Source: Brevinematales bacterium | Lineage (GTDB): Bacteria; Spirochaetota; Brevinematia; Brevinematales; Thermospiraceae | Direction of reading: 5' to 3' | DNA length: 64,000 nt | Assembly (NCBI GenBank): GCA_013177995.1 | Contig: JABLXN010000006.1 | Span: 62,001-126,000, forward strand | In this document: positions 10,767 through 54,548 of the stretch, in pieces | Position numbering within the stretch: the first letter of the stretch is position 1 | Layout: every line of letters starts with the position of its first letter | Position numbers and translations under genes: made by a program | Notes under the pieces: generated by a model | What the model saw: the letters and a program-made list of their open reading frames with translations, nothing else | What the model was told of the DNA's origin: nothing | Databases searched by the model: none

Positions 10767-10783
10767 TGGTTTTTTCATATTTC

Positions 10784-10985
10784 GAGACCTTTGCACGAAT
10801 GTGCGAAGGTCTCAAAAAAGTGGTAAAAAACAAAAAATAGTATAAAAATGTTCCTTAACGTAATAAATAAAACTATTCCTTTGAACAAAAAAAGACAAAT
10901 AAGCCCTTGTAAATGGAAAAAACGGGGTTTCAGGGGCGTAGCCCCTGACCCAGATAGGGGAAGAAAACACCCGTGCAAGGGTCTC
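10784..10985 (-). mobile_element. 202-bp MITE-like element, copy A, flanked by ATTTC duplication
   Basis: The ends are GAGACCTTTGCACG and CGTGCAAGGGTCTC, an inverted repeat. The five bases ATTTC stand immediately outside both ends (10779-10783 and 10986-10990), the mark of a 5-bp target duplication. Inside are the hairpin GAGACCTTTGCACG/CGAAGGTCTC at 10784-10813 and the palindrome CAGGGGCGTAGCCCCTG. No coding capacity. It is the reverse complement of the copy at 24965-25166, same length. Confidence 0.85.
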
Positions 10986-10990
10986 ATTTC

Positions 10991-11680
10991 TGAATTAAAA
11001 ACCAACCCGTGGCTTGTCTTTTCTCCTGTTTTTTATTCCAAAATTTAATAAATTATAACAAAATAAAATTTTATATAATAAAAAAGCCATGAAAAGAAAA
11101 ATTTTTTGAAAAAGGCTCTCCGAAAAAAATCCATTTTCACACCAGATTGTTGAAAAGGTTATTTAAGTTAAAAATAAATACTTCTTTTCTATTTTCAAAA
11201 TTCCTGCTTTTTTCATTTCACTTTTCTTATCAAAAAATATTTTTTCTAAAAATAGGACAAAAATCAAATTTTCACAAGTTATTCAAAAGCAAAGAGTTAT
11301 AAAAAAAGCCTTTCTTTCATTACCACGCTTATTTTGTTTTTCTATGCTCAGCACTCCTTATATAGATAAACAAGGAAAATTTTTCTCACTCATTTTACGG
11401 CTATTTTTCTGGTTTAACAAGAGAAAAAAGTGAAAAAAACTTCTTTATTAAGTGAAAAAATAAACCTTTTTGTAAAAAACACAAAGAAAATAAAGATTTT
11501 CAAAAAACAAAATATATTATCTTAGCCCTTGTGGTAGAGGGTTTAGGTAAAACTTATTTGAGTGTAAAAAAACTTTTTTTATCAAAAATAAGAGATCTCA
11601 GAAATAAAAAAATTTTTTCTAAATTTTTAAACTACGAAAAAAAACGTTTTAAGTGTATGAAAAAAAAGAAAATACCTTTT
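10991..11680. other. Very AT-rich non-coding stretch
   Basis: About 690 bases rich in A and T runs. A 65-codon frame at 11531-11728 is lysine-rich, lacks a ribosome site and resembles no family I know, so I do not call it. I see no convincing promoter, RNA or repeat here. The composition differs sharply from the flanking metabolic genes and fits imported DNA. Confidence 0.6.
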
Positions 11681-11709
11681 TTGCATACCGGGCATAATTT
11701 TTGTATATG
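11681..11709 (+). promoter_or_regulatory. Weak candidate promoter before the island's first genes
   Basis: TTGCAT (11681-11686), 17 bases, TATATG (11704-11709). Matches are partial (3/6 and 4/6), but the spacing is ideal and it lies 38 bases before the first RBS-equipped start at 11747. Confidence 0.35.
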
Positions 11710-11746
11710 GAGTGGGAAAAGGGTATAACAAAAGGAGGAAAGAGAT

Positions 11747-11905
11747 ATGCAGGTTTGTAAACGACGGCTAATTCAGCAAATAGTGAATCTAACTAATGGG
11801 CATATACTGAATCTTAAAAGTGGGCATAAAAAGTATTATATAGCTGAGAGTGTTTTGTTTATAAAAGAAAAATGTATAATACACAATAGGAGGCAAGAAT
11901 TATGA
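11747..11905 (+). CDS. Small protein, 52 residues, unknown
   Basis: ATG 11747 is preceded by a strong AAAGGAGG ribosome site (11731-11738). The product begins MQVCKRRLIQQIVNLTNG, is basic, and shows no membrane segment or known motif. Its stop overlaps the next tiny frame's ATG (11902), so the two would be translationally coupled. It could be a real small protein or a leader peptide for the AAA+ genes that follow. No homologue is recognised. Confidence 0.5.
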   Translation: MQVCKRRLIQQIVNLTNGHILNLKSGHKKYYIAESVLFIKEKCIIHNRRQEL

Positions 11906-11970
11906 GGATAAAGGATAGCCCCATGCTGAAAAGAACACAAATGAACCGTAGTCCACCAACCCTCTCTTGA
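11902..11970 (+). CDS. Tiny RBS-equipped frame, 22 residues, possible leader peptide
   Basis: ATG 11902 overlaps the TGA of the previous small frame and has AGGAGG at 11888-11893. The product starts MRIKDSPMLKRTQMNRSP. Nothing more can be said from its sequence; it ends 77 bases before the first AAA+ gene. Confidence 0.35.
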   Translation: MRIKDSPMLKRTQMNRSPPTLS

Positions 11971-12047
11971 ATTCAAGGGTTGGAAGAAGGCCGGACCCAC
12001 GGGTCCATGGTGTTGTTAAAAAAAGATATGAAGAAAAGGAGGAAGCT

Positions 12048-13211
12048 ATGAAAGAGCTTATTTTTCCTTTTGTGATTGATGGATTTTCTGGTGAAAGAAC
12101 AGGCAATCACAGAGGGTATAGTTATCTTATCCCTTTTTACCAGTTGCCCTTGCCACTCCCTCAGGCGGAATTGCCATTAGAAGATGGAGAAAAACAAGCC
12201 AAGGAGTTTCTTATGCAGAAGAACTTTTTTGAAGAGAGTGATTCTTCAACTATCCAAACACCTGAAACCCCAACCAAAAAAGGTCGCCGCTCTCGAAAAA
12301 CAAAGCTTTTTGTGGATAAAGTCTCTGTTTATCTTGTGGATCTTGTTCAACAGTATACGGTGAAAGATGGTGAAACGGTTATTTTCTCACCTCCTCGGCC
12401 TCGAGAACCAAAGGCTACACCAAAAGAACTTCTGTATCCTGAATTTCCTCGGCTGTTAGCCCAATTTAGAGATGCAGAGAAAAAACGAAAAACTCTTCAA
12501 AAGTGGGGTGTGAAAACCATCCACACAAGAACTAACGTCTCACCTTCTGTGACGGCTATTTTCTATGGCCCTCCGGGAACAGGAAAAAGCATGCTGATAG
12601 AAGCCTTGGCTTACGCCTGTGAAGCCGATATTCTCGAGGTAAAAGCGAGCGATATCTTCCACCGATGGGTGGGAGAAACCCCAAAAAACATTCAGAGGCT
12701 TTTTGATTATTACCAGGACTTGTTTAATGTTTACAACCTTTTTGGCCAAAAAGTCTTTTTGGTTATCAACGAAGCCGACCAACTTCTCAGTGTACGACGC
12801 CCTGTTGTTCACACCTGGGATCAGGAGTCCAATAGCGTTCAAGATTTACTGCTTCAGCAATTGGAGAGTTTTCGAGGATACTTTTTGGTTACCACAAACC
12901 TGGTGGACAACATTGATTTCGCCTTCTGGCGTCGTTTTCTTGTCAAACAAGAGATAGCCCTGCCAGATAGGGAGGCAAGAAAACAATTGTGGTATTTCTA
13001 TTTTCCTCGTTCTGAATATCTTGATCCCTCTGTGAATGTGGATGAACTTGTTTCTTTTGAACTCAGCCCTGGACAGATTGCCAATATTGTAGAAGTCGCT
13101 TGCTTAAGGGCTATAGGCGAAAACAGAAAACTCTCCCAAATGGACTTATTGTACTTTATCCAAAAAGAACTGCTCCTTACTGCCAGAAAAACAAAGAATA
13201 TAGGATTCTAA
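12048..13211 (+). CDS. AAA+ ATPase 1 of the island (NEAD-type Walker B)
   Basis: 387 residues from ATG 12048 (ribosome site AAAGGAGGAAG). The first 165 residues are an N-terminal domain I do not recognise, with a Lys/Arg-rich patch at about 77-86. The AAA module follows: Walker A GPPGTGKS (174-181), a pore-loop-like segment SDIFHRWVGE, Walker B VFLVINEADQL with Asn in place of the first Asp (residue 241), sensor 1 in VTTNLVDN, paired arginines in FAFWRRF (295-296) and the C-terminal helical segment SPGQIANIVEVACLRA. This is a CDC48/FtsH-like classical AAA module, normally a hexameric unfoldase or remodeller. An 11-base gap links it to a second, related ATPase with the same Walker B change. 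Confidence 0.85.
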   Translation: MKELIFPFVIDGFSGERTGNHRGYSYLIPFYQLPLPLPQAELPLEDGEKQAKEFLMQKNFFEESDSSTIQTPETPTKKGRRSRKTKLFVDKVSVYLVDLVQQYTVKDGETVIFSPPRPREPKATPKELLYPEFPRLLAQFRDAEKKRKTLQKWGVKTIHTRTNVSPSVTAIFYGPPGTGKSMLIEALAYACEADILEVKASDIFHRWVGETPKNIQRLFDYYQDLFNVYNLFGQKVFLVINEADQLLSVRRPVVHTWDQESNSVQDLLLQQLESFRGYFLVTTNLVDNIDFAFWRRFLVKQEIALPDREARKQLWYFYFPRSEYLDPSVNVDELVSFELSPGQIANIVEVACLRAIGENRKLSQMDLLYFIQKELLLTARKTKNIGF

Positions 13212-13221
13212 GGAGGAACCT

Positions 13222-14781
13222 ATGAAAACAAAAACAGAAAATTTCAAAGGACAAATGGAGGTATCTATGATTCCGTATTTTACAAATACCACTTTTTCAA
13301 GTGGTAGCACGGTTTTCCCTGTAACCAAAAAACAGGGATGCTTCAAAAAGGTGTTGCAGGCCATGAAGCCTTCAAGGTTTTTTAGGCGCTTCTTGCTCAA
13401 AACATTGAACGTATTACTTGAGTCGCCTGACTTCCAAGAGAGTGTAAAAAGACTGGTGGCTCTCATCTGGCCGCCAGTCTCCACTCATCCCACGCTCAAT
13501 GAGACTATCCCGTGGCCAACGACCCCACCAGAGGATATTGACTTGGAAGAAGACGGATTTTCTCTTGCTTATTCTTCTGCGAATGTTTATAGGTGGTATT
13601 CTCAAAAAACTCTGATCCTCTCGGAGTATCTCAAGGAAGAGAGAAAAGAGGAAGAGTTTGATGAGAGTTATTGGAATGATCATGAAGATACAGATGAGGA
13701 TGAAGACATAACCAACGAAGAGGATACGTACGATGATGAAGATGAGACAGACAATGATACTATTGAGAACGAAAGCCAAAAAGATTTTTCCTTAGCTACA
13801 ACGACTATAAACACCACGGATATGGATATTTTTGGTAGTCCAAACCCACCTTCTGATTCTGAAGATCAAATCAATGTTGAAGAGTTATATGCCATTGTTC
13901 AACCCAAAGTCAAGTGGGATGATGTGATTATCAATGAAGAGGAGAAGGATCAAATTCTTGAAGCTTTTGACTATGAGAGTATTGCTCCCGATCTTCGCCA
14001 ATGGGGGATTAAGCCTAATTTAAGTATGGATCTTTGTCAGAGTGTTAAAATTCTACTATATGGTCCTTCAGGTACCGGCAAAACCCTTTTGGCTGAGGCC
14101 ATTGCCTCTTATTTAAATGCAGAAATTTTTATTCTCAAAATAGAACAACTCTTTAATAAATATGTGGGCGGAACTGAAAAGAGGGTGGAGGCTGTTTTTG
14201 ACAAATATTATCAACTTCTCAAGCAAGCAAAAGAACAGAATAAAAAAATTATCTTTTTTATAAACGAAGCCGACCAACTTTTCTCTGTCCGAACAGATAT
14301 AGACAGATCTATAGACAAGTTTTACAACGAAATCCAAAATATGCTTCTTGAGAAATTGGAGAACTTTGAGGGTATTCTTGTAGCTACCACAAACCTTCTT
14401 CAGAATTTTGACCAAGCCTGGCACAGACGATTTACTCATATTATTAAAATTGACATACCTGACGCAAACAATCGAAAACTCATATGGAAAAAACACTTGG
14501 CGCAAGCCCCCCTTGCGAAAGACGTTGATCTTGAAAATATAGCCAAAAATTTTTCTCTCACCGGTGGCCAGATTGCTAATATCGTATTCAAAGCTGCCTC
14601 ACGAGCTGCCCACCGCCAACAAAAGATTATTACCCACGATGATCTACGCTTTTTTATTGAGGAGACCTTGAAGGCAATTCGGCAGGCTACCGATCACCGT
14701 CCCATGGGCTTTCATACCTCGCCCTACCTTCCTCTTCGTGATAACCCCATAAACCAAAAACTATCTGATTCAGCAAAGTAA
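13222..14781 (+). CDS. AAA+ ATPase 2 of the island, with acidic linker
   Basis: 519 residues, ribosome site AAGGAGG before ATG 13222. The N-terminal 130 residues are unrecognised. Residues about 138-185 form an extremely Asp/Glu-rich linker. The AAA module has Walker A GPSGTGKT (281-288), pore-like FNKYVGGTEK, Walker B IIFFINEADQL (Asn 348), sensor 1 ATTNLLQN, arginines in AWHRRF (402-403) and LTGGQIANIVFKAASRAA. It resembles the preceding ATPase throughout the module, so the pair probably arose by duplication and may form a mixed ring. It ends just before a strong terminator, so genes 1 and 2 form their own transcription unit. Confidence 0.85.
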   Translation: MKTKTENFKGQMEVSMIPYFTNTTFSSGSTVFPVTKKQGCFKKVLQAMKPSRFFRRFLLKTLNVLLESPDFQESVKRLVALIWPPVSTHPTLNETIPWPTTPPEDIDLEEDGFSLAYSSANVYRWYSQKTLILSEYLKEERKEEEFDESYWNDHEDTDEDEDITNEEDTYDDEDETDNDTIENESQKDFSLATTTINTTDMDIFGSPNPPSDSEDQINVEELYAIVQPKVKWDDVIINEEEKDQILEAFDYESIAPDLRQWGIKPNLSMDLCQSVKILLYGPSGTGKTLLAEAIASYLNAEIFILKIEQLFNKYVGGTEKRVEAVFDKYYQLLKQAKEQNKKIIFFINEADQLFSVRTDIDRSIDKFYNEIQNMLLEKLENFEGILVATTNLLQNFDQAWHRRFTHIIKIDIPDANNRKLIWKKHLAQAPLAKDVDLENIAKNFSLTGGQIANIVFKAASRAAHRQQKIITHDDLRFFIEETLKAIRQATDHRPMGFHTSPYLPLRDNPINQKLSDSAK

Positions 14782-14794
14782 CTTCTTTTTCGTC

Positions 14795-14829
14795 AAGGCT
14801 GTCCTTTTAAGGACAGCCTTTTTTCTTCT
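14795..14829 (+). terminator. Intrinsic terminator after AAA+ ATPase 2
   Basis: Perfect 12-bp stem AAGGCTGTCCTT (14795-14806) with AAGGACAGCCTT (14809-14820), followed by TTTTCTTCT. Confidence 0.9.
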
Positions 14830-14993
14830 AAAAAAATTTTTTAAAAATTTTCTTTTTTCTCTTAAATTCTTCGTCATTTTTTCCGATAAACCGCAGGGGG
14901 AGGGCGAGATGATATAGCTTCATTGCGGCATAACCTTCTATGTTGGGGGGAATTCTCTTTTCAGCCAAAAAGTTTCTGCGAAACCTTTTTCTT

Positions 14994-15025
14994 TTTTGTC
15001 CTTCTCCCTATGGAGAAGGACAAAA
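14994..15025. repeat. Perfect 14-bp hairpin
   Basis: TTTTGTCCTTCTCC (14994-15007) pairs with GGAGAAGGACAAAA (15012-15025) around the loop CTAT. No T-run follows on the plus strand. It lies in the gene-free leader after the AAA+ pair. Confidence 0.75.
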
Positions 15026-15350
15026 GCCTTCTTTACTGAAAAATGAGAGCACTTAACCGTGAGGGGGGAAGATACTTACTCTCTTTCTTTCCCTTACTTC
15101 ACCACCTTATTTTCTGTGAAAAATAAGAAAAATTTTTTTATAAAAAATAAGGAAAAATACAAAATAAAAGCGTATATATTGTAATAGACTCTCTTGATAA
15201 AATTCTTGAAAAGAAAAAAAGAAAAAAATTTGAAAAATTTTTGTTGAGTTATTATCTTTTTTATACATATAAGAAGTACAAGAAAAAAAGAAAAAAGGAG
15301 GGGATAGCGAAAGGATTCTTACATGAACGCAAAACTTCACAAAAGGGAAA

Positions 15351-15380
15351 GACTTTGTCAGATTTCTCTCTGACAAAGTC
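15351..15380. repeat. Perfect 12-bp hairpin overlapping a tiny frame
   Basis: GACTTTGTCAGA (15351-15362) pairs with TCTGACAAAGTC (15369-15380), six-base loop. The TGA of the 16-codon frame starting at ATG 15323 (upstream AAAGGA) is inside the right arm, so a ribosome finishing that frame would melt the hairpin. Confidence 0.7.
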
Positions 15381-15437
15381 TCGGTGTCGTCTTTGACACT
15401 CTCCTGTGTGGCCCCAAAAAACACAAGGAGGTTTTCC

Positions 15438-15581
15438 TTGAAAAAGCCACAACAAAAAATGATGTGGTGGTCTATTTCCGTTCTTCTTTTTCAGGTGATT
15501 CATTTCACCTTCTCTTTCTTTTTTGCCTGCTCTTTCCTCTCTTTCCTTATTTTACGCGTTCGTGTTCCTCCGCCGTGTTAA
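15438..15581 (+). CDS. Small membrane peptide, 47 residues, TTG start
   Basis: TTG 15438 stands 6-7 bases after AAGGAGG (15425-15431). The product begins MKKPQQKMMWWSISVLLF and is almost wholly hydrophobic, with one long or two short membrane spans. The ribosome site and start codon lie in a small stem, CAAGGA pairing with TCCTTG (15424-15440), so translation may be gated. It could be a toxin-like peptide, a leader peptide or chance. No antitoxin gene is visible. Confidence 0.4.
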   Translation: MKKPQQKMMWWSISVLLFQVIHFTFSFFFACSFLSFLILRVRVPPPC

Positions 15582-15590
15582 TGGCTATGT

Positions 15591-15610
15591 ATTCCCCTTC
15601 GTAGGGGAAT
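15591..15610. repeat. 8-bp hairpin with TCGT loop
   Basis: ATTCCCCT (15591-15598), loop TCGT, AGGGGAAT (15603-15610). It follows the small membrane frame by 9 bases and has no T-run. Confidence 0.55.
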
Positions 15611-15671
15611 TGGACCGTCTTCTCACGTGTTGACTTGTTGTGTGTCATTTGTAGGAAAAAGGTGTTTTGGG

Positions 15672-15705
15672 TTCTTCTGAAAATCCTTTGTGGTTTTCAG
15701 AAGAA
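15672..15705. repeat. Perfect 12-bp hairpin
   Basis: TTCTTCTGAAAA (15672-15683) pairs with TTTTCAGAAGAA (15694-15705) around a ten-base loop. Confidence 0.65.
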
Positions 15706-15726
15706 GAGGTGTCGGATTTCTTCCTA

Positions 15727-15753
15727 AAAAGGCCAGAAAAAAAATGGCCTTTT
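15727..15753. repeat. 9-bp hairpin, terminator-like
   Basis: AAAAGGCCA (15727-15735) pairs with TGGCCTTTT (15745-15753). The right arm ends in four Ts and could terminate weakly on the plus strand; the next gene starts 140 bases downstream. Confidence 0.55.
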
Positions 15754-15803
15754 GGGGAAATCTTTTGACATGTACCGAAAACCAAACACAAAAGGAGGCT
15801 TGT

Positions 15804-15866
15804 ATGCAGAGCCCTCTCGAGTTTTTTATTGGATTCCCCCCAGAGCCAGAAAAGGCTCTGGGGTAG
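15804..15866 (+). CDS. Tiny RBS-equipped frame, 20 residues, possible leader peptide
   Basis: ATG 15804 has AAAGGAGG 5 bases upstream. The frame encodes a short peptide starting MQSPLEFFIGF and stops with TAG at 15864-15866, directly after a perfect 10-bp hairpin (15838-15847 with 15854-15863, CCCCAGAGCC). The ribosome would traverse the hairpin just before the ribosome site of the metallopeptidase gene. This geometry suits a translational attenuator, though no regulatory codon run is visible. Confidence 0.35.
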   Translation: MQSPLEFFIGFPPEPEKALG

Positions 15867-15892
15867 TGAAAAAACACATAAGGAGGTCCCCT

Positions 15893-17080
15893 ATGGCCAG
15901 AAGAAAAAGGCTTTCTTCTCTTCAGATGAGTGAAAGGATCAACAAGGCAAAATACAATCTCATTGCCAAGGATCCCTTTTTCTCCATGTACTTGTCTTTC
16001 TTGGAATTCAGGGAATCAAAAGATATTGAAACCTTTGCTACCGACGGAAGAAGGATTTATTACAATAGAGAGTTTGGTTCCAGACTTACCCTCGCTGAGA
16101 TAGAGGGAGTGCTTGCCCATGAGGTTTTGCATGTGGCTTTCCAGCACCCTCAGAGAATGCAGGATCGTCAGCCTCTTCTCTGGAATATAGCCTGCGATAT
16201 GGTGATCAATAGTTTACTTCAAAAACATGGCTATACGCTTCCAGAGGCAGGAACCTTCGATCCCCAGAAGAGAGATGCCTCAGCCGAAGAGATATACGAA
16301 CAGGAAAGAAAAAAACTGATTGAAAGATGGAAAAGACAAAAAAAGTTTGGTTCTTTTGATGATTTTATAAAGGATTGGGGGAAAAACACTATCAATATTG
16401 GGGAAATCCTTCGCCCGGAAGATGGCATTGACCCGAAGGAGTTGGGAGTTCCATCCCTCAATGAGAGAGATGGGGACCCTTTAGGAAAATCTTTTGGAAT
16501 GGATTCTTTGGGAGCAAGGCGAGACGTTGAGGAAGAAGAAATTTCTCCCCCACCCCCACCCTCATGGCAAACTATTCTTCGAAATGCTCTCCAACTGGTA
16601 AGGGGAAAAGATACCTATACTTATCATAAACTTCACAAAGCCTACCTTCCTCATCGAATTATTATCCCTACGGCAAATGGTTATAGAGTGCCATCCGTCT
16701 TTGTTTCGATTGACACCTCCGGGAGTATAGGACGAAGAGACTTGAAAACCTTCTTGAATGAACTGGAAAACCTTCTCAAAAAGATAGTGGATAAGGTGTG
16801 TGTTCTTTGGCATGATTCCGAGGTATATCCGGAGGAAAAACCAGTAACCACCCTCTCTCAGGCCAAAAGACTTCGACCAAGGGGCGGAGGAGGGACAGAC
16901 TTTTGCCCTGTATTTGAGTATGTCAATAAACAAAAAACTTCCAAAAAAATCCTCATCCTTTTTACTGATGGGATGGGAAGAATGCCAGAAAAAGCCCCTC
17001 CCTATCCTGTGATTTGGGTATCAACCGAGAGAAAGGATTTCCCGTTTGGGAAAGTGGTGCCATTTCATATAAAAAGATAA
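15893..17080 (+). CDS. Predicted zinc metallopeptidase with C-terminal VWA-like domain (DUF2201 type)
   Basis: 395 residues from ATG 15893 (ribosome site AAGGAGG). The N-terminal part carries a zincin motif, AHEVLHVAFQH (HEVLH at 76-80, further His 85). A linker with a proline run (residues about 218-223) leads to a VWA-like domain with the MIDAS motif SIDTSGSIG (274-278) and a second metal-loop segment GGGGTDF. This matches the COG3864 / DUF2201 family of predicted metal-dependent peptidases with a VWA-like fold. Such proteins are normally encoded beside a MoxR-type ATPase, as here. The VWA domain probably binds the ATPase or a substrate. In-frame sequence extends upstream to 15752 without a better start. 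Confidence 0.85.
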   Translation: MARRKRLSSLQMSERINKAKYNLIAKDPFFSMYLSFLEFRESKDIETFATDGRRIYYNREFGSRLTLAEIEGVLAHEVLHVAFQHPQRMQDRQPLLWNIACDMVINSLLQKHGYTLPEAGTFDPQKRDASAEEIYEQERKKLIERWKRQKKFGSFDDFIKDWGKNTINIGEILRPEDGIDPKELGVPSLNERDGDPLGKSFGMDSLGARRDVEEEEISPPPPPSWQTILRNALQLVRGKDTYTYHKLHKAYLPHRIIIPTANGYRVPSVFVSIDTSGSIGRRDLKTFLNELENLLKKIVDKVCVLWHDSEVYPEEKPVTTLSQAKRLRPRGGGGTDFCPVFEYVNKQKTSKKILILFTDGMGRMPEKAPPYPVIWVSTERKDFPFGKVVPFHIKR

Positions 17081-17100
17081 AAAGAAAAAAGGAGGCCCCT

Positions 17101-17421
17101 ATGTCCAAGAAAAATGCCTACGTCATTCTTCCTGCAGGTACTTCTTCCCAGAGAGGGAGAAAAGTCTCCCCAAAAAACACTTCTTCCACTGGACAAAATA
17201 CAACCATAAGGAGGAATACCATGCCTCAAAAACAGAACAAAATTCCATTTGAGAGAAGTATGCCGGTGGTGAAAGCCTCAGAACTCCTTGGCTATATAGA
17301 ATATTTCTACCCCACAATGCCCCTCTTTCTGTGGGGAAAACCCGGCATAGGAAAATCTTCGATAGTGAAACAGTTTGCTCAGAAAAAGGGTTGCCTCTTC
17401 TGGATATTCGAGCTTCATTGA
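17101..17421 (+). CDS. MoxR-type AAA+ ATPase, N-terminal part (frameshifted)
   Basis: Two in-frame starts each have a full ribosome site: ATG 17101 (AAGGAGG) and ATG 17221 (AAGGAGG at 17213-17219 region). The product from 17221 looks like the family start, and the extra 40 residues from 17101 are Ser/Thr/Lys-rich and unrecognised. Walker A is WGKPGIGKSSIV. The frame then runs into a stop at 17421 after an abrupt loss of similarity at the A5G3 run (17383-17390). Adding one A there would read KKGLPLLDIRASLMDP and join the frame ending at 18350. Confidence 0.7.
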   Translation: MSKKNAYVILPAGTSSQRGRKVSPKNTSSTGQNTTIRRNTMPQKQNKIPFERSMPVVKASELLGYIEYFYPTMPLFLWGKPGIGKSSIVKQFAQKKGCLFWIFELH

Positions 17422-18350
17422 TGGATCCGACGGATCTCAAGGGGATACCAACGTATGATAAGGATGAAAAACATACGGTGTGGTTGCCAAATGACTTTTG
17501 GCCAAGGGAGGGGACACAGGGTATTCTCTTTCTTGATGAACTGAATCGGGCACCTGAATCCGTCCAAAACGCCCTGTTGCAACTCATCTTAGATAGAAGA
17601 CTGCTCAACTATCAACTCCCAGAAGGGTGGTATATCATAGCCGCAGGAAATAGTGAAGATGATGATATAGGAGTGTCAAACCTGAGTTATGCCTTTGCTA
17701 ATCGCTTTGCCCATCTACGACTTCAAGCCGACATCCACTCGTGGCTTGGCTGGGCAGCAGACAATGGTATTCACCCTGCTATTTGTAATTATCTTGAAAT
17801 TTCTCCCCAAAACCTGTGTACGCTTGATATGATAAAGGAGAATAATTCTTCTACCTACGTTTTTGCGACTCCTCGTAGTTGGGAAAATTTCTCAAAACAA
17901 TTGTATGCCATTGAGGAAACATTTTCCTCCAAAGAAGAGGCAGAGACTTCCATCCTTGTTATAGGAGGAGCATTGATTGGGACAGTGGTGGCAGATTTCC
18001 TTCATTTCTACAAGCAGCAGGAGGAGTTTATAAGTATAGAGGCCATCCAAAAGAACCCAGAAAAGTACCCATTGCCAAGACAAATCTCCTATTTGCACAA
18101 GTTGATACCCTACTTGGCAGAGAATACCAACGAAATGAATGCAGAGGCATTGGTAACGTATGTCTTGAGATTTCCTCAAGAGCTTCAAATGCTCTACCTG
18201 AAGACAGCCTCCGAGAAAATAGATATCATAAAACAAACGGAAGCAGGCAAAAAACTTCTCGAAATTCACGAGAAGTATATCCTCCAATTGGGGGAAGGAA
18301 CAGGCTCTTCTTTTGACAGGATTCAAAAAACAGAAGGGAGGAGAAAATAA
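17331..18350 (+). CDS. MoxR-type AAA+ ATPase, C-terminal part (separate frame)
   Basis: Meaningful sequence begins near 17385; the GTG at 17331 is only where the frame opens. Visible MoxR features are ASLMDPTDLKGIP, Walker B GILFLDELNRAP with normal Asp-Glu, sensor 1 IIAAGNSEDD and the arginine-containing ANRFAHLRL. The remaining 180 residues are helical. MoxR ATPases act as chaperone-like partners of VWA proteins, here the gene just upstream. Together with the 17101-17421 frame this gives an ATPase of about 375-415 residues. The next gene starts two bases after the stop, with its ribosome site inside this gene. Confidence 0.75.
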   Translation: MGKTRHRKIFDSETVCSEKGLPLLDIRASLMDPTDLKGIPTYDKDEKHTVWLPNDFWPREGTQGILFLDELNRAPESVQNALLQLILDRRLLNYQLPEGWYIIAAGNSEDDDIGVSNLSYAFANRFAHLRLQADIHSWLGWAADNGIHPAICNYLEISPQNLCTLDMIKENNSSTYVFATPRSWENFSKQLYAIEETFSSKEEAETSILVIGGALIGTVVADFLHFYKQQEEFISIEAIQKNPEKYPLPRQISYLHKLIPYLAENTNEMNAEALVTYVLRFPQELQMLYLKTASEKIDIIKQTEAGKKLLEIHEKYILQLGEGTGSSFDRIQKTEGRRK

Positions 18351-18351
18351 T

Positions 18352-21300
18352 ATGAGGACAGCAAAAGAAATATTCGTTTTGTTAGAAGGGGCTATAGCCA
18401 AAGGGGAGCTTGAGATGTTTCTCTCCGATTACCCTGATCAAGAACTCATCCTGCGATTGGCAGACGGAGAGAGAACTCAACAAATGGTGAATGATGCGCT
18501 CGTCCTTGCCTTTTTCTTGGGGCAAAGAAACGCGATGGAACAACTCATCACGGAGTATAAGGCTGATTCTCATTGTCTTTTGACACCTATTCTTTCGTTT
18601 ATCTCTTGCCCTTTTTGGGATCAGGATGTTCAGTGGCTTACCACCACATTCGGAACCCCTCAAGATCCACACTCTCCATCTCTTCGCTTGAGACTTCTTC
18701 TTGTTCGCTATATGATTTTTTTGGGGGCTTCGTTGAATCATTTGTTCTTAGACCACTACGGGAGAAAAGCGACAGCCATTCTCAAAATCTTGTCTTCTCC
18801 TTATGCAAAACTGATTTTTTATCTTCCTCCTGATACATTTGATCCTCTTGAAGTGGGCTTTTCAGAAGAAGGCCAACCCCTTACGCTTCTGGATGTGGTA
18901 TTGGACAAAAATCTCTATGCCTTTCTCCCTTTTTTGCCTCGAATTGGGTATGAGTACACCCGTTTGACCAAGCAAACGCAAGAGAGTATTCTTTTTTATC
19001 TTTTACAAATTCCAGAGATCAATATCGACGATAGACGATTGAGAGAAGGGAATGAAGTTTTCTTTCTCAACAGGAGATACCGTCATCTGAGAAGAAGGGT
19101 GGGGGAAGAGAAAATGTCAACACGTCCTCTGGAAAAAGCTATCCTTCGTCTTTTTCATAGCTATCCACATCTTATTCAATCCAAGGGATATCGACAAAAA
19201 CTCTTTGAAGAAGTGTCGAGGCGGCCCCTTCCTCAGTTAGCCCTTTTCCTTCTTCACCAAGAAGGGGATTCGACATATATCAAAAATAACCTCTTTTCTC
19301 TTTTGTTGTTTTCTATTGCCATGCGAGAGGTTTCTCTCGTAGAGGATCTTATAGACAGAATGTCCGAATTCTCTCAAGAAGAAACCTTTTTTCTTGTTGA
19401 AGTAGCCATTCTCTTTTATGAGGAAAATGTTTTCTCCCTTGTGATGAAGAGAATTCCTTTTCTTCCTGAGTGGCGACATTCTCTTCTGAGAGCCCTGAAC
19501 TACCTAAGCGATATCATAGAAGAAGACCATGAGATGGAGATCACGCACAAGGTAAAAGAGACACTTTCCGCCCTTCTTGTAACCCTCCAGGAAAAGGGTT
19601 TGGATATCAATGACCTGTGGGATAGATTTCGCTACGATGATCTCTATGAGTCTTCGTGGCATCACGTGGTGAGTCTTCTCTATACCCTCGGAGAATACAA
19701 GAGGGCAAAAGAGTTTTTCTCTTTTGTGGTTGGATTTTTGAGACCACACGAGATCTCAAAAGTGGTTGCCTCCTTTTTTGGTATGGGAGCCTATGATATT
19801 CTTGACATAATTTTTGATGCGACTTTGTATCCTGAGAAGAGATTTTTTTCCTATATGATGCGAGGAATCGATGAAGACATAAACTTCTACGAAATCATTG
19901 CTAAACAGGCTGACGAGAGAATCAAAGACCCCTCTTTGACAGAAAAGTTTGTCCGCTGGGTCAATACCCTTGCCCCTCTTTTGCCAAAAGAAAAAAAGAA
20001 AGAACTATTCACCACAATGCTCATACACGAAAAAAATGGTGACCTTGCTTTGGCATCTTTTGACCCATCGTTTCTTTCCCGGTTATTTAGCTCTCATGAT
20101 ATTCCCTCTTTTTTATATGCTTTGCAGATAGCCCATGAGCCTCTGATAGCAACCATGAAAAAGTATAACGCGGATAACTTTGAAATGGGAAGTGGAATTC
20201 TTTTTTATCAAAAGTTCTTTCCGCACTTTTTGGAGAGCCAAAAACACCAGATTTTGAATAACCAACAATACCTGAGTGAAGAACCTTTCCGTAAGGTTTG
20301 GAGAAAACCCTTCCCCCTCTTTTCACTTCAACTTATTGGATGGCTTTTGGAAAATTATCCCCATATTCTTTTCAACCCCTCTATCCAAGAAACAGAAACC
20401 TTTTTCCTTGTGAATATGACACCGGATATTATCTTGCAATGGACACCAGCTTCTTTGGACTTTTTCTCTCAGGTAAGGGAAACAGCCACCATCCTCTTGA
20501 AATTCTGGGATGAGATTTTGTTTTTGGTGCTGATGAGATACCCTTCTCTAGCCCCAAAACTTGCCCGTGTGTTCCCTCATCCACGACTTGAGGTTTTTCG
20601 AAAAGAAACCCTCTCCACTCCTTGCCCTGGAGGCCGTCGTATGCAAACCCTCTGGAAGGCTTGGGGATGGGATGAGCGATGCTTTTTTGTCGCTGTTCAG
20701 TATGAGGACAGGGATTTTCTTCAATTTTGGATGGAAAAGGCAGATTATAGCGAGATAGGGCACAAGGGCCCTCGATATAAAGAAAAACTGATCAGAAAAG
20801 CCGTTTTCTGGGCTACCCTCGAGAAGAAAAATACCTCGCTTGCTTTCTTGTTGGACTTCATCCCTGAGAAGGAATTGTTCTTTGATACGATGAAACCTTA
20901 TGATCCCCGTATGCGAGGGATTGTGAAGTGTTTTTTAGAAGAAGCCCCTCCTCGTTTGGCCAAGCGACACCAGATTTCTCTCTTCTCCCTTGCCTTGCTA
21001 GCCAAAAATGAGACAGCTGCCCACCTCATTGCCCAAAGAGGAGGGAAACTCTTTCTTGAAGATAGTGAGGGAGAATCACCGATAGCCTACGCGGTGATGG
21101 GAAGTTCTCAACAGGCGCACGAAAATATCACCTTACTCCGAATGATATTTGCTCCCACCGTTGGTTGGTGGTACCTCTATGAACATAAAAAACCCTTTTC
21201 TGATCAGGAAAAGATACACTTCTCGGGTTCATGGTTTGTCAAGGAGATGCAAGATCTCTTCCATCGATTGGACTGGGTGCAAAAACAAGGGGTACCCATT

Positions 21301-21777
21301 GGGAAGAATTCAGCGACTTCTGCTCTTGTTTGTGCCATAGCCTCACAAAGTATTTCCTTTGCTTCTCCCACTTTATTTGTTTTAGACTCCTATTATTATA
21401 GACATTCACGAGGTTCTTTTATATCAAGTGGTAAGTATTTTTCTTCTGAAGTTGTGATAGGAACAAAAGTGATTTTCTCCTATCTTCGGAGACATGGGGC
21501 TTCTTTTACAGACCCTAAGAGAACAAAAGAAACCCCTATGCAGAGCCTTTTGTTGTGGGCACTTCAATCAGCAAGCGCAAAGAAGTTTTCAGGCTTTTTC
21601 TTTTTTGTTTTTTCGTTTCTTTGCTCTGAAGGGGCTAGTCCACGTGAAACAATAACTCTTTCTCAAAACAATGGGCAGGAAATACTCAATGTATGGGATA
21701 TTCTTGTGGAAGAAAATCTACAGGAATGGTTGACCTTTGTGTATAAGTATGGAGTGGTGAGAGGAATATCATCATAA
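18352..21777 (+). CDS. Giant helical protein, 1141 residues, unknown (ankyrin-like ends)
   Basis: ATG 18352 with GGGAGGAG upstream. I do not recognise a family. The sequence is a long series of amphipathic helices, as in an alpha-solenoid. Some parts resemble ankyrin repeats, for example AKNETAAHLIAQRGGKLF followed by SEGESPIAYAVM near residue 895-925, and a similar passage near the N-terminus. No signal peptide, membrane segment or catalytic motif is visible. Its position directly after the MoxR gene suggests it is a scaffold or substrate-recognition partner of the MoxR/VWA pair. It may alternatively be an effector; nothing in the sequence proves either. Confidence 0.8.
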   Translation: MRTAKEIFVLLEGAIAKGELEMFLSDYPDQELILRLADGERTQQMVNDALVLAFFLGQRNAMEQLITEYKADSHCLLTPILSFISCPFWDQDVQWLTTTFGTPQDPHSPSLRLRLLLVRYMIFLGASLNHLFLDHYGRKATAILKILSSPYAKLIFYLPPDTFDPLEVGFSEEGQPLTLLDVVLDKNLYAFLPFLPRIGYEYTRLTKQTQESILFYLLQIPEINIDDRRLREGNEVFFLNRRYRHLRRRVGEEKMSTRPLEKAILRLFHSYPHLIQSKGYRQKLFEEVSRRPLPQLALFLLHQEGDSTYIKNNLFSLLLFSIAMREVSLVEDLIDRMSEFSQEETFFLVEVAILFYEENVFSLVMKRIPFLPEWRHSLLRALNYLSDIIEEDHEMEITHKVKETLSALLVTLQEKGLDINDLWDRFRYDDLYESSWHHVVSLLYTLGEYKRAKEFFSFVVGFLRPHEISKVVASFFGMGAYDILDIIFDATLYPEKRFFSYMMRGIDEDINFYEIIAKQADERIKDPSLTEKFVRWVNTLAPLLPKEKKKELFTTMLIHEKNGDLALASFDPSFLSRLFSSHDIPSFLYALQIAHEPLIATMKKYNADNFEMGSGILFYQKFFPHFLESQKHQILNNQQYLSEEPFRKVWRKPFPLFSLQLIGWLLENYPHILFNPSIQETETFFLVNMTPDIILQWTPASLDFFSQVRETATILLKFWDEILFLVLMRYPSLAPKLARVFPHPRLEVFRKETLSTPCPGGRRMQTLWKAWGWDERCFFVAVQYEDRDFLQFWMEKADYSEIGHKGPRYKEKLIRKAVFWATLEKKNTSLAFLLDFIPEKELFFDTMKPYDPRMRGIVKCFLEEAPPRLAKRHQISLFSLALLAKNETAAHLIAQRGGKLFLEDSEGESPIAYAVMGSSQQAHENITLLRMIFAPTVGWWYLYEHKKPFSDQEKIHFSGSWFVKEMQDLFHRLDWVQKQGVPIGKNSATSALVCAIASQSISFASPTLFVLDSYYYRHSRGSFISSGKYFSSEVVIGTKVIFSYLRRHGASFTDPKRTKETPMQSLLLWALQSASAKKFSGFFFFVFSFLCSEGASPRETITLSQNNGQEILNVWDILVEENLQEWLTFVYKYGVVRGISS

Positions 21778-21799
21778 AATATCTCAAAAGGAGGAAAGT

Positions 21800-22465
21800 A
21801 TGAGAGAACAAATCCACGACTTTATCCAAAAATCCCCCACAAACGAGAAACGCAGGCAAAACCTGATCTTGGAGCTACAAAAGAGAAACCTTCACGTGGA
21901 ACATGAACTCATAGCCGATGTCCACAATGTTTTTGTTTGGGGGAAAAGCCATCTATGGCTTTCCGCTCATTACGACACGATTGATCCTCTCCATAGTTAT
22001 ATAGATAATACCACGGGAGTTTTTCTTGCTATGGAACTCAAAACTCAACTCCCAGAAATCAATGTCATGTTTTTTGACAAAGAAGAACCACCCTTCCTTG
22101 GAAAGGGGGCAAGCCTTACTCAGGTGATAGATACTCATAATATTGTGTTTAACCTTGATGTGGTGGGAATTGGGGATGCCATTATTTATGATGCTCAGAG
22201 AGAAATAGAGGAACTGAATCGTTGGGGGCTTGTCTGGATGCGTACCCCTCCCTGCGATACCCAATCCCTTTGGAGAAGGGGTATTGAGGCTATCACAATC
22301 TCCAACGCTGAGAAAAGTCCACGAGGGGGTATCAATTGTGAAAAATGGAGATATTGTCATTCGTCTTATGATACTCTGGATATGATTAGCGACTCTTCTA
22401 TAGAAAAAACAAAAGAAGTTCTTTTGGCCGTCTTGAAGGAAAAGTGGTTGCACAAAAGAAAATAG
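21800..22465 (+). CDS. Small M28-family zinc aminopeptidase-like protein
   Basis: 221 residues, ribosome site AAGGAGG. The five metal ligands of the M28 fold can be placed: His57 and Asp59 region in SAHYDT, Asp69 in SYIDNTTG, Glu95-Glu96 in DKEEPP, Asp120 in FNLDVVG and His187 in CHSSYDT. The order and spacing fit M28, but the chain is shorter than usual and has no signal peptide, so it would act in the cytoplasm. It follows the giant helical gene by 22 bases and is the last gene of the operon. Substrate unknown. Confidence 0.8.
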   Translation: MREQIHDFIQKSPTNEKRRQNLILELQKRNLHVEHELIADVHNVFVWGKSHLWLSAHYDTIDPLHSYIDNTTGVFLAMELKTQLPEINVMFFDKEEPPFLGKGASLTQVIDTHNIVFNLDVVGIGDAIIYDAQREIEELNRWGLVWMRTPPCDTQSLWRRGIEAITISNAEKSPRGGINCEKWRYCHSSYDTLDMISDSSIEKTKEVLLAVLKEKWLHKRK

Positions 22466-22511
22466 TCAAAAAAGTATGTTTTCTTTTTGGCTGAGAAGAC
22501 TTTTTTCTAAA

Positions 22512-22539
22512 AAAGGGGTAGGTGTAAACCTACCCCTTT
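22512..22539. terminator. Bidirectional terminator between M28 gene and aspartic protease gene
   Basis: Perfect 12-bp stem AAAGGGGTAGGT (22512-22523) with ACCTACCCCTTT (22528-22539). It sits between convergent genes; on the minus strand it is followed by TTTTAG. Confidence 0.75.
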
Positions 22540-22543
22540 AGGC

Positions 22544-23476
22544 TTATTCGAAAAAGGAAACAGGCGTGTATTCACCCTCTTTGCCATTGATAGCCATACG
22601 AACGGGATTCCCATCTGTTTTGAAAACCAATCGTTCATAGACGGTGTTCATGATTTCAGGGTCTTCCATGTCTATTCCGGGTAATGTGATGATATCCCCT
22701 TTCTTTACATCCAGAGGACACCCATTCAACACATGGGAAACCACAATCTGATGATCTACCATCTCCACTTGTATCCGAAACGAATGGGTAGGATTCGTGG
22801 GGAAAATTTGAGGCTTTGTGGATTCTTTGAGGAAAAGCTTTTTGTTTTCCTTGTCCCAGAGGCATTCATACTTTTCTAAAAAACTTGCTCCGAGAATATG
22901 GAGTCCTGGGTCTCCAAAGTTTTTCGGTAGCCCAGTGAATACCTCACCATAAAAATGTCCATCTATTTCAAGCCCCATCATGGCATAATTGATATGGAGA
23001 TCACGACCAACAGAGGGCATGATAAATTCGGCAGAACGAGGTCCATGATAATTCTGGTGGGAAAAATTCATACACGCAAAAGATCCGGTATCAATAGCAA
23101 TCCTTCTTTGCTCTCCTCCCTCTTTGAAAGAAGCCATGGCACCAAAAGGAATAGAGGAAGTGGCGTCAAAAGAGGAGACATTGAAACGCACTTCTCTTCC
23201 TCTTCCGTGAAGCAGAATATTCTCAAAAAGATCAAAAAACTCTCTCCCCAAGAAACCTACAATAGGTATGCCAAAAAAACGACTTGCAAGACGAAGATCA
23301 ACCAACCATGAAGAATTAAGCGACAGAGAAAAATCTACTTCTGCTCCAATGTCATCTGAGGTGATACGAGAAAACTCTGGAGAAAAAGACCTCCCTCCAC
23401 TATCAAGGAGAAAATACTTTGGCTCTTCCTTTTGCACTCGAACAAAAAGGGCATTGCAAATAGTGTACACCTTCAT
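22544..23476 (-). CDS. Bilobal retropepsin-like aspartic protease with C-terminal PDZ-like domain
   Basis: 310 residues from the ATG at 23476, with AAAAGGAGG upstream; a longer frame to 23536 lacks a good site. There are two retropepsin-like lobes: DSG at residues 25-27 (YFLLDSGG) closing with PIVGFLGREFF, and DTGS at 129-132 (IAIDTGS) closing with LHILGASFLEKY. Retropepsins usually have one lobe per chain and dimerise, so this chain looks like a fused dimer. Residues about 232-310 resemble a PDZ-like domain. No signal peptide or membrane segment is seen. It converges on the M28 gene and has its own strong promoter, beside which the IS element has inserted. Confidence 0.75.
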   Translation of the reverse strand: MKVYTICNALFVRVQKEEPKYFLLDSGGRSFSPEFSRITSDDIGAEVDFSLSLNSSWLVDLRLASRFFGIPIVGFLGREFFDLFENILLHGRGREVRFNVSSFDATSSIPFGAMASFKEGGEQRRIAIDTGSFACMNFSHQNYHGPRSAEFIMPSVGRDLHINYAMMGLEIDGHFYGEVFTGLPKNFGDPGLHILGASFLEKYECLWDKENKKLFLKESTKPQIFPTNPTHSFRIQVEMVDHQIVVSHVLNGCPLDVKKGDIITLPGIDMEDPEIMNTVYERLVFKTDGNPVRMAINGKEGEYTPVSFFE

Positions 23477-23507
23477 AGATAACCTCCTTTTAACTTTTTG
23501 CTTTTTG

Positions 23508-23536
23508 ATTATACGATAAAATGAAAAGAAATGCAA
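23508..23536 (-). promoter_or_regulatory. Promoter of the aspartic protease gene
   Basis: Minus strand: TTGCAT (23536-23531), 17 bases, TATAAT (23513-23508). The end of the IS element is only 6 bases upstream of the -35 box, so the insertion may have replaced upstream control sequence. Confidence 0.75.
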
Positions 23537-23581
23537 CTTTGTTGTCGTTCCACATATGAAACTGAATACCTATTTTCACAT

Positions 23582-23610
23582 TTGACAAAGAAGGGGGGAT
23601 AATGGATAAT
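23582..23610 (+). promoter_or_regulatory. Transposase promoter inside IS left end
   Basis: TTGACA (23582-23587), 17 bases, GATAAT (23605-23610), 15 bases before the transposase start codon. Because TSS and ATG are close, the message has a very short leader that still contains AAGGAGG. Confidence 0.65.
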
Positions 23611-23624
23611 ACAAGGAGGAAAAT

Positions 23625-24839
23625 ATGAAGAGGAGGAAGAAGCGTATGGTTAAATCGAAGATAAAGAGATTACAAGGATTCTTTGTTCAAGTTCAGGAAA
23701 GAGAAATATCTTTAGGTTGGGTGGCAAGAAAACTTGATATAAGCCGATCCTGGGTTACCGTTTTGTATCAAAGGTTCTGTCGAGGAGAAAGTCTCATTCG
23801 GCCAAGAACATCCAGAAAGTCAAAGCTTGAGCAAAAGCATATAGCCCTTATTCTTGAAACATACGAAGATCTGGCCATTGAAAAAGAGAATAAACAGAAA
23901 GAATACCCTTCGGTAAGAATTCTTTCCAACACCTTATATGAGCTTTACAAGGATTTTCCTGAGGTTTCAGATGAAACTATTCGGAGAGTGCTAAAAAAAT
24001 TCTTTGTTCATTATCCTGAGCGAGCAAGGCATCACTATCGCAAAAGGTGGCAGGCAGAAGCCATAGGCGAGATTGTCCAGGGAGATGTTTCCACGCATCA
24101 ATGGGTAGAAAAGAAGCCTCCTTTTCCCCTTCTCCTGATTATGGATGACCATTCTCGCTATGTCCTTGCGGCTAAATTCTTACCAGAAGACACAATAGAA
24201 AACCATAGAATGGTGTGGCAGGAGGTCTTCCAAGAGTATGGTCTGCCCTACAAGGTGTATTATGACAATGACCAGAAGTATTCTAAAAAGAATAACGGCC
24301 TTATAGCTAAGGCTTTTGAGGAAATTGGTATTTGTGTGATTAACTCTCGTCCCTATCAACCCCAGGGCAAGGGAAAAATTGAGCGCAAAATCCAGACATT
24401 CCAGAAACAAGTTACTTTCTATATCAAGAAAGCTTTGAAAAATAAGCGAATCGAGACCTTAGAACAGTTAAACTGGATTTTGAGAGAGTACGTTATAGAG
24501 CACAATAATACGCCTTCTCGAGCGCTTGGTGGACGAACACCCGAGGAAGTGTTTTTAGAGGCCCGCAGAAAGCCCCAGAAAGACCTTTTTAAGCCCTTTA
24601 CACTCTCTTCGGAAGAGTTTGAGAAGGCATTCGCTTTGAGAGACTTTCGCAAGCTTGATAAGACCTATGAGGTTTCGTATAACGGCCATAGATATCGAAT
24701 TCCCAGAGAAAATGCTTTTCATGTGTTTCCTGGCGTCAACATCGAGGTAAGGGAATTTCCCGGGAAATGGGTGAAACTGTTTTACAAAGGCCATGAGTTA
24801 GCTCATTATCCTTTCCGAGAAACAAAAATTGACAAATAA
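23625..24839 (+). CDS. IS transposase, integrase-core (rve), IS481/IS3-like
   Basis: 404 residues, ribosome site AAGGAGG. An N-terminal helix-turn-helix (LGWVARKLDISRSWVTVLYQ) is followed by a second HTH-like region and the integrase core. The catalytic triad can be placed: Asp in IVQGDVSTHQW, Asp in YYDNDQKYS and Glu in GKGKIERKIQTF. The C-terminal segment YNGHRYRIPRENA is typical of the small beta-domain after rve cores. The gene is intact in one frame, so it is probably active and may move the related transposase-less elements in this window. Family placement between IS481 and other rve groups is uncertain. Confidence 0.88.
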   Translation: MKRRKKRMVKSKIKRLQGFFVQVQEREISLGWVARKLDISRSWVTVLYQRFCRGESLIRPRTSRKSKLEQKHIALILETYEDLAIEKENKQKEYPSVRILSNTLYELYKDFPEVSDETIRRVLKKFFVHYPERARHHYRKRWQAEAIGEIVQGDVSTHQWVEKKPPFPLLLIMDDHSRYVLAAKFLPEDTIENHRMVWQEVFQEYGLPYKVYYDNDQKYSKKNNGLIAKAFEEIGICVINSRPYQPQGKGKIERKIQTFQKQVTFYIKKALKNKRIETLEQLNWILREYVIEHNNTPSRALGGRTPEEVFLEARRKPQKDLFKPFTLSSEEFEKAFALRDFRKLDKTYEVSYNGHRYRIPRENAFHVFPGVNIEVREFPGKWVKLFYKGHELAHYPFRETKIDK

Positions 24840-24964
24840 GTTTTAGGGAGGTATACTTATGAGGTATTCAGTTTTTATGTGGAAATACCCCTTCTGTCAA
24901 TGTGTGGAACGACATTTTCATGAATAAAAAGCTCAAACTGTACATCTTCATCAAAAAAAATACC

Positions 24965-25166
24965 GAGACCCTTGCACGGGTGCTTTCTTGCCCTCTTTGG
25001 GTCAGGGGCTACGCCCCTGAAACCCCACTTTTTCTGCTTACAAGGGATTATTTATCTTTTTTATTCAAAAAAAACAAGATTATTGATTACGTAAAGAAAT
25101 ATTTTTATACTAATTTTTGTTTTTAATTACTTTTTTGAGACCTTCGCACATTCGTGCAAAGGTCTC
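24965..25166 (+). mobile_element. 202-bp MITE-like element, copy B, flanked by ATACC duplication
   Basis: Same ends as copy A in the opposite orientation (GAGACCCTTGCACG ... CGTGCAAAGGTCTC). ATACC is found directly outside both ends (24960-24964 and 25167-25171). Internal sequence matches the reverse complement of 10784-10985 over its whole length with scattered differences. No coding capacity. Confidence 0.85.
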
Positions 25167-25198
25167 ATACCATGATTTCTTCTCCTCGCTCCATAAAT

Positions 25199-35201: not shown

Positions 35202-35240
35202 ATAGAGGACATTGAGAGAAGGGGTAGGTCTTATTTGCCG

Positions 35241-36063
35241 TGTCGTTCCACATATGAAACTGAATACCTATTTTTACATTTCCTGTGAACAGGGAAATAA
35301 AACGAGAAAGCTCTGTTCTTTCACTCCCTTTTTTGTACCCCACTTCGACTTCGCTCAGGAGCCTCACCGAGTCGCTTTGGCGGTTGTGCACCCTTTGCCG
35401 CAAGGGGGAAACCCTTCTGAAGTGAGGGTGCAGGAGGCACCTGGGGCGCCCCCTTGTGTTGCTTTTGCCCGCAAGGCCACCGAAGCGGAGCCGCGGAGGC
35501 TTTGCTGAGACATGGGAATAGCCAAAGGCGTGTGGGGTGTATAGAGAAAGGTTAAACGTTTAACCAATGAGGCGGTTGGCTGAAACAGGGTAATAGCCCC
35601 GGGCCTTTTGGTCTCAGAAAGCCCTCTTCTTGCTAACCCGTCGCCATGCCCCCGTCCCTGCCTGCGGTGTCACCTGAGAGAAGCCCCTGCAGGGAACACG
35701 TGCCCCGCGGGCTGGTAATGGAAGCCATCGTCTTTTCACCACTGGCCGAGCCACAGGAGGTGGCGAGGAAGCCCGGGGTCAGACAAGGAGGGCTGTCTCC
35801 GGGCGGCTACAGAAGAGAGCGGGGTTACAGGTTTTTGTTCCAGCCCGCACCACGGGAGACAGGTCGGTGGCTACAAAAACCGCCGCAGGGGCGGGGACGG
35901 GGTTTTCAAAAGGGGCGAAGCCCCTTTTGTCCTGCGCGGAAGCGCTTCGTAGAAGAAAGAAGACAGGCAACAAAAATAGCTCAAAACTGAAAGAAAAGAG
36001 ATGGTTGAACAAGTATTCAGTTTTTGTGTGAAGATAACCATTCTGTATGAATGTGGAACAACA
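35241..36063 (+). mobile_element. Transposase-less element, 823 bp, with IS-type ends
   Basis: Left end TGTCGTTCCACATATGAAAC matches the IS at 23543; the right end (minus strand from 36063, TGTTGTTCCACATTC...) matches the IS right-end pattern with ACTGAATAC at its inner edge. 18-bp blocks flanking it (35223-35240 and 36064-36081) agree at 14 of 18 positions, an old target duplication. The interior is GC-rich, unlike neighbours, and shares about 270 bases at the left and 120 at the right with the element at 53834-54398, while the middle differs. It contains two direct-repeat 20-mers (35504-35523, 35579-35598). No convincing gene. Confidence 0.75.
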
Positions 36064-36071
36064 GAAAGGCC

Positions 36072-53813: not shown

Positions 53814-53833
53814 TGCCCCGAAGGTACATATTG

Positions 53834-54398: not shown

Positions 54399-54548
54399 CC
54401 CTGAAGGTACATATTGTCTCTTTGATGAGAAAAAATAAAATAGGGAGATGACCATACCTTGGATTTGGGTGTGATCGACGGCGTATACAATGGAAATGGT
54501 GGTGTGGGGAAGGAGAAGAGTTTTTGGGGAAGGACGCCTCCCCCTTTT

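Follow-up and report, generated by a model that had tools for sequence, protein, structure and literature searches.

Peptide capture by vWA proteins and remodelling by MoxR ATPases constitute a general mechanism (PMC7159879). A pair formed by MoxR and a metallopeptidase-vWA protein has been noted in jumbo phages, for which a role in virion assembly, with proteolysis, was proposed (PMC7824862). In addition, ternary conflict systems have been published in which a MoxR-vWA couple is joined by large helical proteins and variable partners, and in which proteolysis takes part (Kaur et al., 2020; PMC7159879). A literature search found nothing experimental on the metallopeptidase-vWA/MoxR couple, despite the hundreds of phages and the many bacteria that carry it.

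The couple considered here is found in a window of 64,000 nt (the whole stretch of DNA analysed), which is part of one of the 57 contigs of the 2.38-Mb genome of a Brevinematales bacterium. Between 10.7 and 25.2 kb, the window harbors two AAA ATPases, a metallopeptidase-vWA protein, a MoxR ATPase, a 1141-aa protein, an M28 peptidase, an antisense orphan and an insertion sequence (IS), arranged as follows.

10775..10985, + strand: dispersed, MITE-like 202-bp element, left copy (arm comparison, genome repeat search)
12048..13211, + strand: AAA1 ATPase, 387 aa, with the Walker B variant INEAD (Pfam AAA; separate module)
13222..14781, + strand: AAA2 ATPase, 519 aa, with an acidic N-terminal half (Pfam AAA; separate module)
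14795..14820, + strand: intrinsic terminator after AAA2, 11-bp stem and T run
14993-15026: second terminator, ahead of the next operon
15893..17080, + strand: metallopeptidase-vWA protein, 395 aa, DUF2201_N and DUF2201 (Pfam, phrog_1314)
17101..17421, + strand: MoxR ATPase, 5' part, Walker A WGKPGIGKSS (open reading frame, aligning to the P-loop of intact homologues)
17383..17392, + strand: site of the -1 frame step in MoxR (comparison of frames with about 25 intact homologues)
17392..18350 (reading frame listed from 17331), + strand: MoxR ATPase, 3' part, LPLLDIRASLMDPTDLKGIP to the C terminus (phrog_1297, 1e-75; AAA_5, 1e-8)
18352..21777, + strand: orphan 1141-aa protein, predicted all-helical, proposed third partner, starting 1 nt past the MoxR stop
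21800..22465, + strand: M28 aminopeptidase-type protein, 221 aa (Pfam PF04389, Peptidase_M28, 9e-10)
22544..23476, - strand: orphan protease-like protein with two D-S/T-G motifs (aa 25 and 129), convergent to the operon
23543..24914, + strand: complete IS, 1372 bp, with terminal repeats TGTCGTTCCACATAT
23625-24839, within the IS: transposase, IS481/ISNCY-like
24965..25175, - strand: dispersed, MITE-like 202-bp element, right copy (arm comparison)

The original prediction, made from the sequence by itself, had proposed all of this as one candidate system in an AT-rich block bracketed by inverted MITEs. The composition holds, with a G+C content of 36-44% in the block versus about 46-48% across most other parts of the window. 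So does most of the gene inventory, in which Pfam and the reading frames support the two AAA ATPases, the HExxH/vWA protein, MoxR, the 1141-aa protein, M28 and the IS; MoxR, however, is split, and the announced bilobal aspartic protease comes down to its two motifs. The unity of the block did not survive: its genes form a mosaic, each part of which was acquired independently, and not a single system.

Regarding the bracketing repeats, the two 211-nt arms are real, inverted to each other and 84% complementary, but there is nothing special about their position. The 202-bp element occurs in the genome at least 43 times in full or nearly so, the right-hand copy of the window included; this is a lower bound, 40 of 236 candidates having been scored, and the true number may be higher. 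At least nine other adjacent pairs of elements occur within about 20 kb, and on one contig 10 of 21 adjacent pairs are less than 15.3 kb apart, several of them in opposite orientation. Because the copies are so numerous and dispersed and neighbouring ones are frequently spaced like these two, the bracketing of the block is a matter of chance and the pair defines no unit; a MITE-borne unit was rejected on these grounds of copy number and spacing. More generally, a genome-wide count of the repeat is needed before repeat-bracketed gene islands are called units. The element is absent from both congeners, bar a 29-base match in G002. Tandem and partial copies can also be found at 10689-11321 of contig C18 in G000, and contigs C44 and C19 begin within copies of the element, so that the repeat breaks the assembly.

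The site of the block is a rearrangement breakpoint, since ACSL, the gene preceding the block, is directly followed by gltX in the congener G001, whereas about 24 kb separate the two genes in the window, where gltX is inverted relative to G001 (10.7-35.2 kb). PFK is located elsewhere in both congeners. With the flanks thus rearranged, no simple empty site was found in the congeners, and the comparison of flanks that the original prediction had proposed lends no support to a mobile unit. A composite element mobilised by flanking MITEs was likewise discarded, as the element is not confined to the bracket and no simple empty site was found.

The AAA1-AAA2 pair is a module separate from the genes that follow it, because a strong terminator stands at 14795 and G001 carries the pair alone. 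Both ATPases match PF00004 (2e-21 and 3e-26), are encoded as separate genes and keep Walker A. Their best relatives are the same ordered pair in G001, AAA1 being 44% identical to its first gene and AAA2 46% to its second; that pair adjoins flagellar genes at another locus, where the rest of the block is missing. A related protein of about 700 aa with the same domain can be found in G000, G001, G002 and much of the order.

The IS and the antisense orphan are further add-ons to the block. For the orphan, neither Pfam nor PDB gave a match and 120 genomes yielded no real relative; its AlphaFold model (pLDDT 32) is too poor for use, so that the aspartic protease assignment is not upheld. Elsewhere in the window, an inverted pair of segments (35240-36066 and 53831-54399) shares the terminal sequence of the IS; these are probably its relics or non-autonomous relatives.

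The four remaining genes, vWA, MoxR, the 1141-aa protein (hereafter the giant) and M28, form an operon at 15893-22465, with gaps of 20, 1 and 22 nt and AGGAGG-type sites ahead of each start; it is missing from both congeners. The vWA protein matches DUF2201_N (5e-31), DUF2201 (2e-24) and phrog_1314 (1e-74). It carries HEVLH at aa 76 and a MIDAS motif, DTSGS, at aa 274, and its catalytic and MIDAS residues are invariant in the alignment with homologues. In the M28 protein, which has no match in 60 relatives, the motifs AHYD, DNTTG, KEE, LDVVG and CHSSYD can be read from the sequence, which we take to be the metal-ligand motifs expected of the family. Apart from the metallopeptidase fusion and M28, no other effector domain was found in the operon with Pfam and PADLOC.

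The MoxR ATPase is present as predicted, but the first reading had overlooked that it is split over two frames: the first closes with Walker A and the second opens with the conserved LLDIRASLMDPTDLKGIP, at a point where the intact homologues run through. The step falls between two conserved motifs, no conserved residues are lost and the Walker motifs are retained across both frames. The vWA-MoxR couple may have been inactivated by mutation, may be recoded, or may owe the step to an assembly error. G AAA AAG at the step is a possible programmed frameshift site; a stimulatory RNA structure was not found there, the surroundings giving no unusual RNA structure (z = +1.1, +0.6, +0.9).

The giant matches nothing in Pfam, PHROG, NCBIfam or PADLOC. 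Among 120 genomes of the phylum no relative was found, nor in two collections, one viral and one of genomes, whose searches use short exact peptides and reach close relatives only. Its predicted helical nature is what an all-alpha AlphaFold model shows, one of low confidence (pLDDT 44) that does not confirm the fold. With Foldseek, the top matches are karyopherins and other solenoids, none of them significant. Comparison by hhalign with an ankyrin consensus, with itself and with betaproteobacterial giants gave nothing, and Pfam detected no similarity to LRV or HEAT repeats. The giant was therefore set aside as an ankyrin (hhalign), HEAT or LRV protein (Pfam) by sequence.

The couple itself is widespread and does not require the AAA pair as a neighbor. 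Homologues are found in 591 (vWA) and 771 (MoxR) phage records and, for the vWA protein, in 89 plasmids, extending over N4-like and jumbo phages, plasmids and bacteria of many phyla. Among 92 homologous loci centred on vWA relatives, MoxR lies at most three genes from the vWA gene in 72 and upstream in 70; the original prediction had rightly singled out the link between MoxR and the DUF2201-type vWA protein. The 80 loci of the genome profile scan, which rests on one peptide pattern, are a biased sample. The order vWA before MoxR is rare, seen in the window and in Allomeiothermus. In the tree of vWA proteins, the window branch is deep and poorly placed (support 0.27). No AAA1/2-type pair was found beside the couple in the 92 loci. 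As to the conservation of gene order, the genes of the block are found separately and no order is kept across it, although the MoxR-vWA link recurs; this is largely the outcome that the original prediction had named as weakening the idea of a system. G059, of the same phylum, has a MoxR-vWA couple with a lone related AAA gene three genes downstream of it (L274, 8151-14596).

Third partners of the couple are varied. An LRV or HEAT repeat protein, supported by Pfam, stands within two genes in 15 of the 92 loci (about one in six), several of these 15 being related cyanobacteria; such reading frames amount to 17 of 267 near the couple versus 10 of 673 farther away (Fisher p = 2.6e-4, kinship uncorrected). 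On an Allomeiothermus plasmid, the arrangement is HEAT-vWA-MoxR, in the vWA-then-MoxR order of the window. In Acidobacteriota, Cloacimonadota and Burkholderia plasmids, the third gene encodes a protein of about 290 aa, DUF3150-like in some. In a betaproteobacterial set (L202, L205, L211, L214, L216 and L225), proteins of about 350 aa and 981-1097 aa precede the couple; the larger has a C-terminal reverse transcriptase, with retron RT_XIII as best PADLOC match in the three scanned. No paper on this reverse transcriptase-couple association was found in the literature search. At another locus (L230, 11144-20764), at least six LRV/HEAT repeat proteins are clustered beside a metallopeptidase-vWA/MoxR couple.

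Taking these observations together, the best explanation, to which we would give somewhat less than an even chance for its two parts jointly, is that dispersed repeats, the IS, the AAA pair and the orphan gene accreted at a rearranged site of lower G+C, and that the functional core is the four-gene operon. The core would encode a MoxR AAA+ ring and a vWA co-chaperone with an N-terminal zinc metallopeptidase domain, to which are added a small aminopeptidase of the M28 type and a large partner that is helical and probably a solenoid. By analogy with characterised MoxR-vWA pairs, the MIDAS site of the vWA protein would capture a peptide of a bound protein, ATP hydrolysis by MoxR would pull or remodel it, the fused metallopeptidase would cut it and M28 would trim the resulting fragments. 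The giant would bind the couple as a dedicated scaffold or sensor selecting what gets processed; from its model and from the analogous loci, we infer a solenoid partner, which fits the variable third-partner position of the couple. The substrate and biological role of the operon are likewise inferred. Because homologous couples often adjoin helical-repeat proteins, the originally suggested MoxR-vWA link and giant helical partner can be retained for the four-gene operon, not for the whole block. Against this explanation, the frame step may mean that the operon is dead, the giant shows no similarity to LRV, HEAT or ankyrin repeats and has a poor model, many couples have no repeat protein nearby, the enrichment of such proteins is uncorrected for kinship, and the vWA-first order is rare. 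It holds only if MoxR is produced whole in spite of the frame step.

Three of the four other explanations seem improbable to much the same degree, and one far more so. That all eight genes belong to a single system, which the inverted elements on either side move together, would account for their common low G+C and their co-location between two inverted copies; it is nevertheless already contradicted by the dispersal of the element in at least 43 copies, the AAA pair of G001 without the rest, the terminators within the block, the lack of an AAA1/2-type pair next to vWA-MoxR in the 92 loci and the orphan status of the antisense gene, to which that of the giant can be added, and we regard it as highly implausible. 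A decaying pseudo-operon, in which MoxR has recently been inactivated and the genes no longer work together, would agree with a -1 frame step lacking a stimulatory RNA structure, with the complete IS adjoining and with the operon missing from both congeners, and function has possibly been lost in this way. Every other long frame is intact, though, 1141 codons included, the step removes no conserved residues, and the same picture would result from an assembly error of one base or from -1 recoding at the A-rich G AAA AAG; decay is an unlikely account.

Equally doubtful is a phage leftover, that is, a stranded fragment without cellular role of a couple serving virion assembly and processing in phages. 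While the close couples in N4-like and jumbo phages, the virion-assembly role proposed for the pair (PMC7824862) and the broken MoxR frame speak for it, the block has no other phage gene and housekeeping flanks, its vWA, 1141-aa and M28 genes are unbroken and stand close together, the couple occurs without evident phage genes at many loci of chromosomes and plasmids, and the vWA protein of the window is poorly placed in the tree. Finally, the operon might be a ternary anti-phage system, with a threshold set by the couple, an invader sensed by the giant and proteolysis as the response. The composition of the published systems (PMC7159879), the retron-like reverse transcriptases adjoining related couples and the absence of the operon from both congeners are compatible with it, and a defence role is possible. 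However, Pfam recognised no VMAP, iSTAND, FtsH or beta-propeller component, PADLOC gave no match for vWA, MoxR, the giant or M28, and the same couple is common within phages and has no defence neighbors here, so that we consider this reading, too, as improbable. With the chaperone-protease operon retained as the preferred explanation, a wider view can be put forward, though it is a speculative one that we think rather unlikely: the couple would be a widespread, phage-shared chaperone-protease core, repeatedly paired in bacteria with lineage-specific helical solenoids (LRV, HEAT, and the giant here) or large reverse-transcriptase proteins, and would make up an undescribed sensing or defence class in which it falls to the partner to select the target of degradation.

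With regard to known systems, the likeness of AAA1 and AAA2 to the anti-phage ATPase of IetAS is a general similarity of AAA domains: they score 72 and 98 bits against a curated cut-off of 510, and the subtilase partner IetS is not among the window proteins scanned. IetAS was thus rejected for the AAA pair. The ternary conflict systems (Kaur et al., 2020; PMC7159879) share with the window a MoxR and vWA core together with an extra large partner and peptidases in the operon. In the window, the metallopeptidase is fused to vWA, a fusion that the paper calls rare, and the giant has no Pfam match to VMAP, iSTAND, double-FtsH or beta-propeller proteins, divergent forms of which could escape; the inactive/active FtsH tandem is also unlike AAA1 and AAA2, which are separate genes with Walker A intact in both. 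The LRV/HEAT-associated couples of cyanobacteria, the Allomeiothermus plasmid and betaproteobacteria adjoin a helical-repeat protein, as proposed for the window; their own partner has recognisable repeats, unlike the giant, and a similarity search did not find M28 beside them. The phage MoxR/metallopeptidase-vWA pair (phrog_1297 and phrog_1314, as in jumbo phages and N4-like phages such as LUZ7) has the same architectures, HExxH, MIDAS and MoxR motifs, with about 28-33% identity to the window proteins. The N-terminal metallopeptidase, HExxH, MIDAS and an adjoining phrog_1297-type MoxR are thus all present in the window, and the phage genome setting is absent: the window pair differs in its location on a bacterial chromosome, in having vWA before MoxR and MoxR in two frames, in lacking the DUF3150-type partner of about 290 aa, and in carrying a giant orphan and M28. 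Loci in which the couple is tied to a further peptidase and to a helical partner of its own suggest that it is a machine for protein processing, driven by ATP, whose specificity parts can be exchanged. The operon joins a protease-carrying, phage-shared MoxR-vWA couple to a previously unseen giant and an M28 peptidase; its kind is known and its combination is new.
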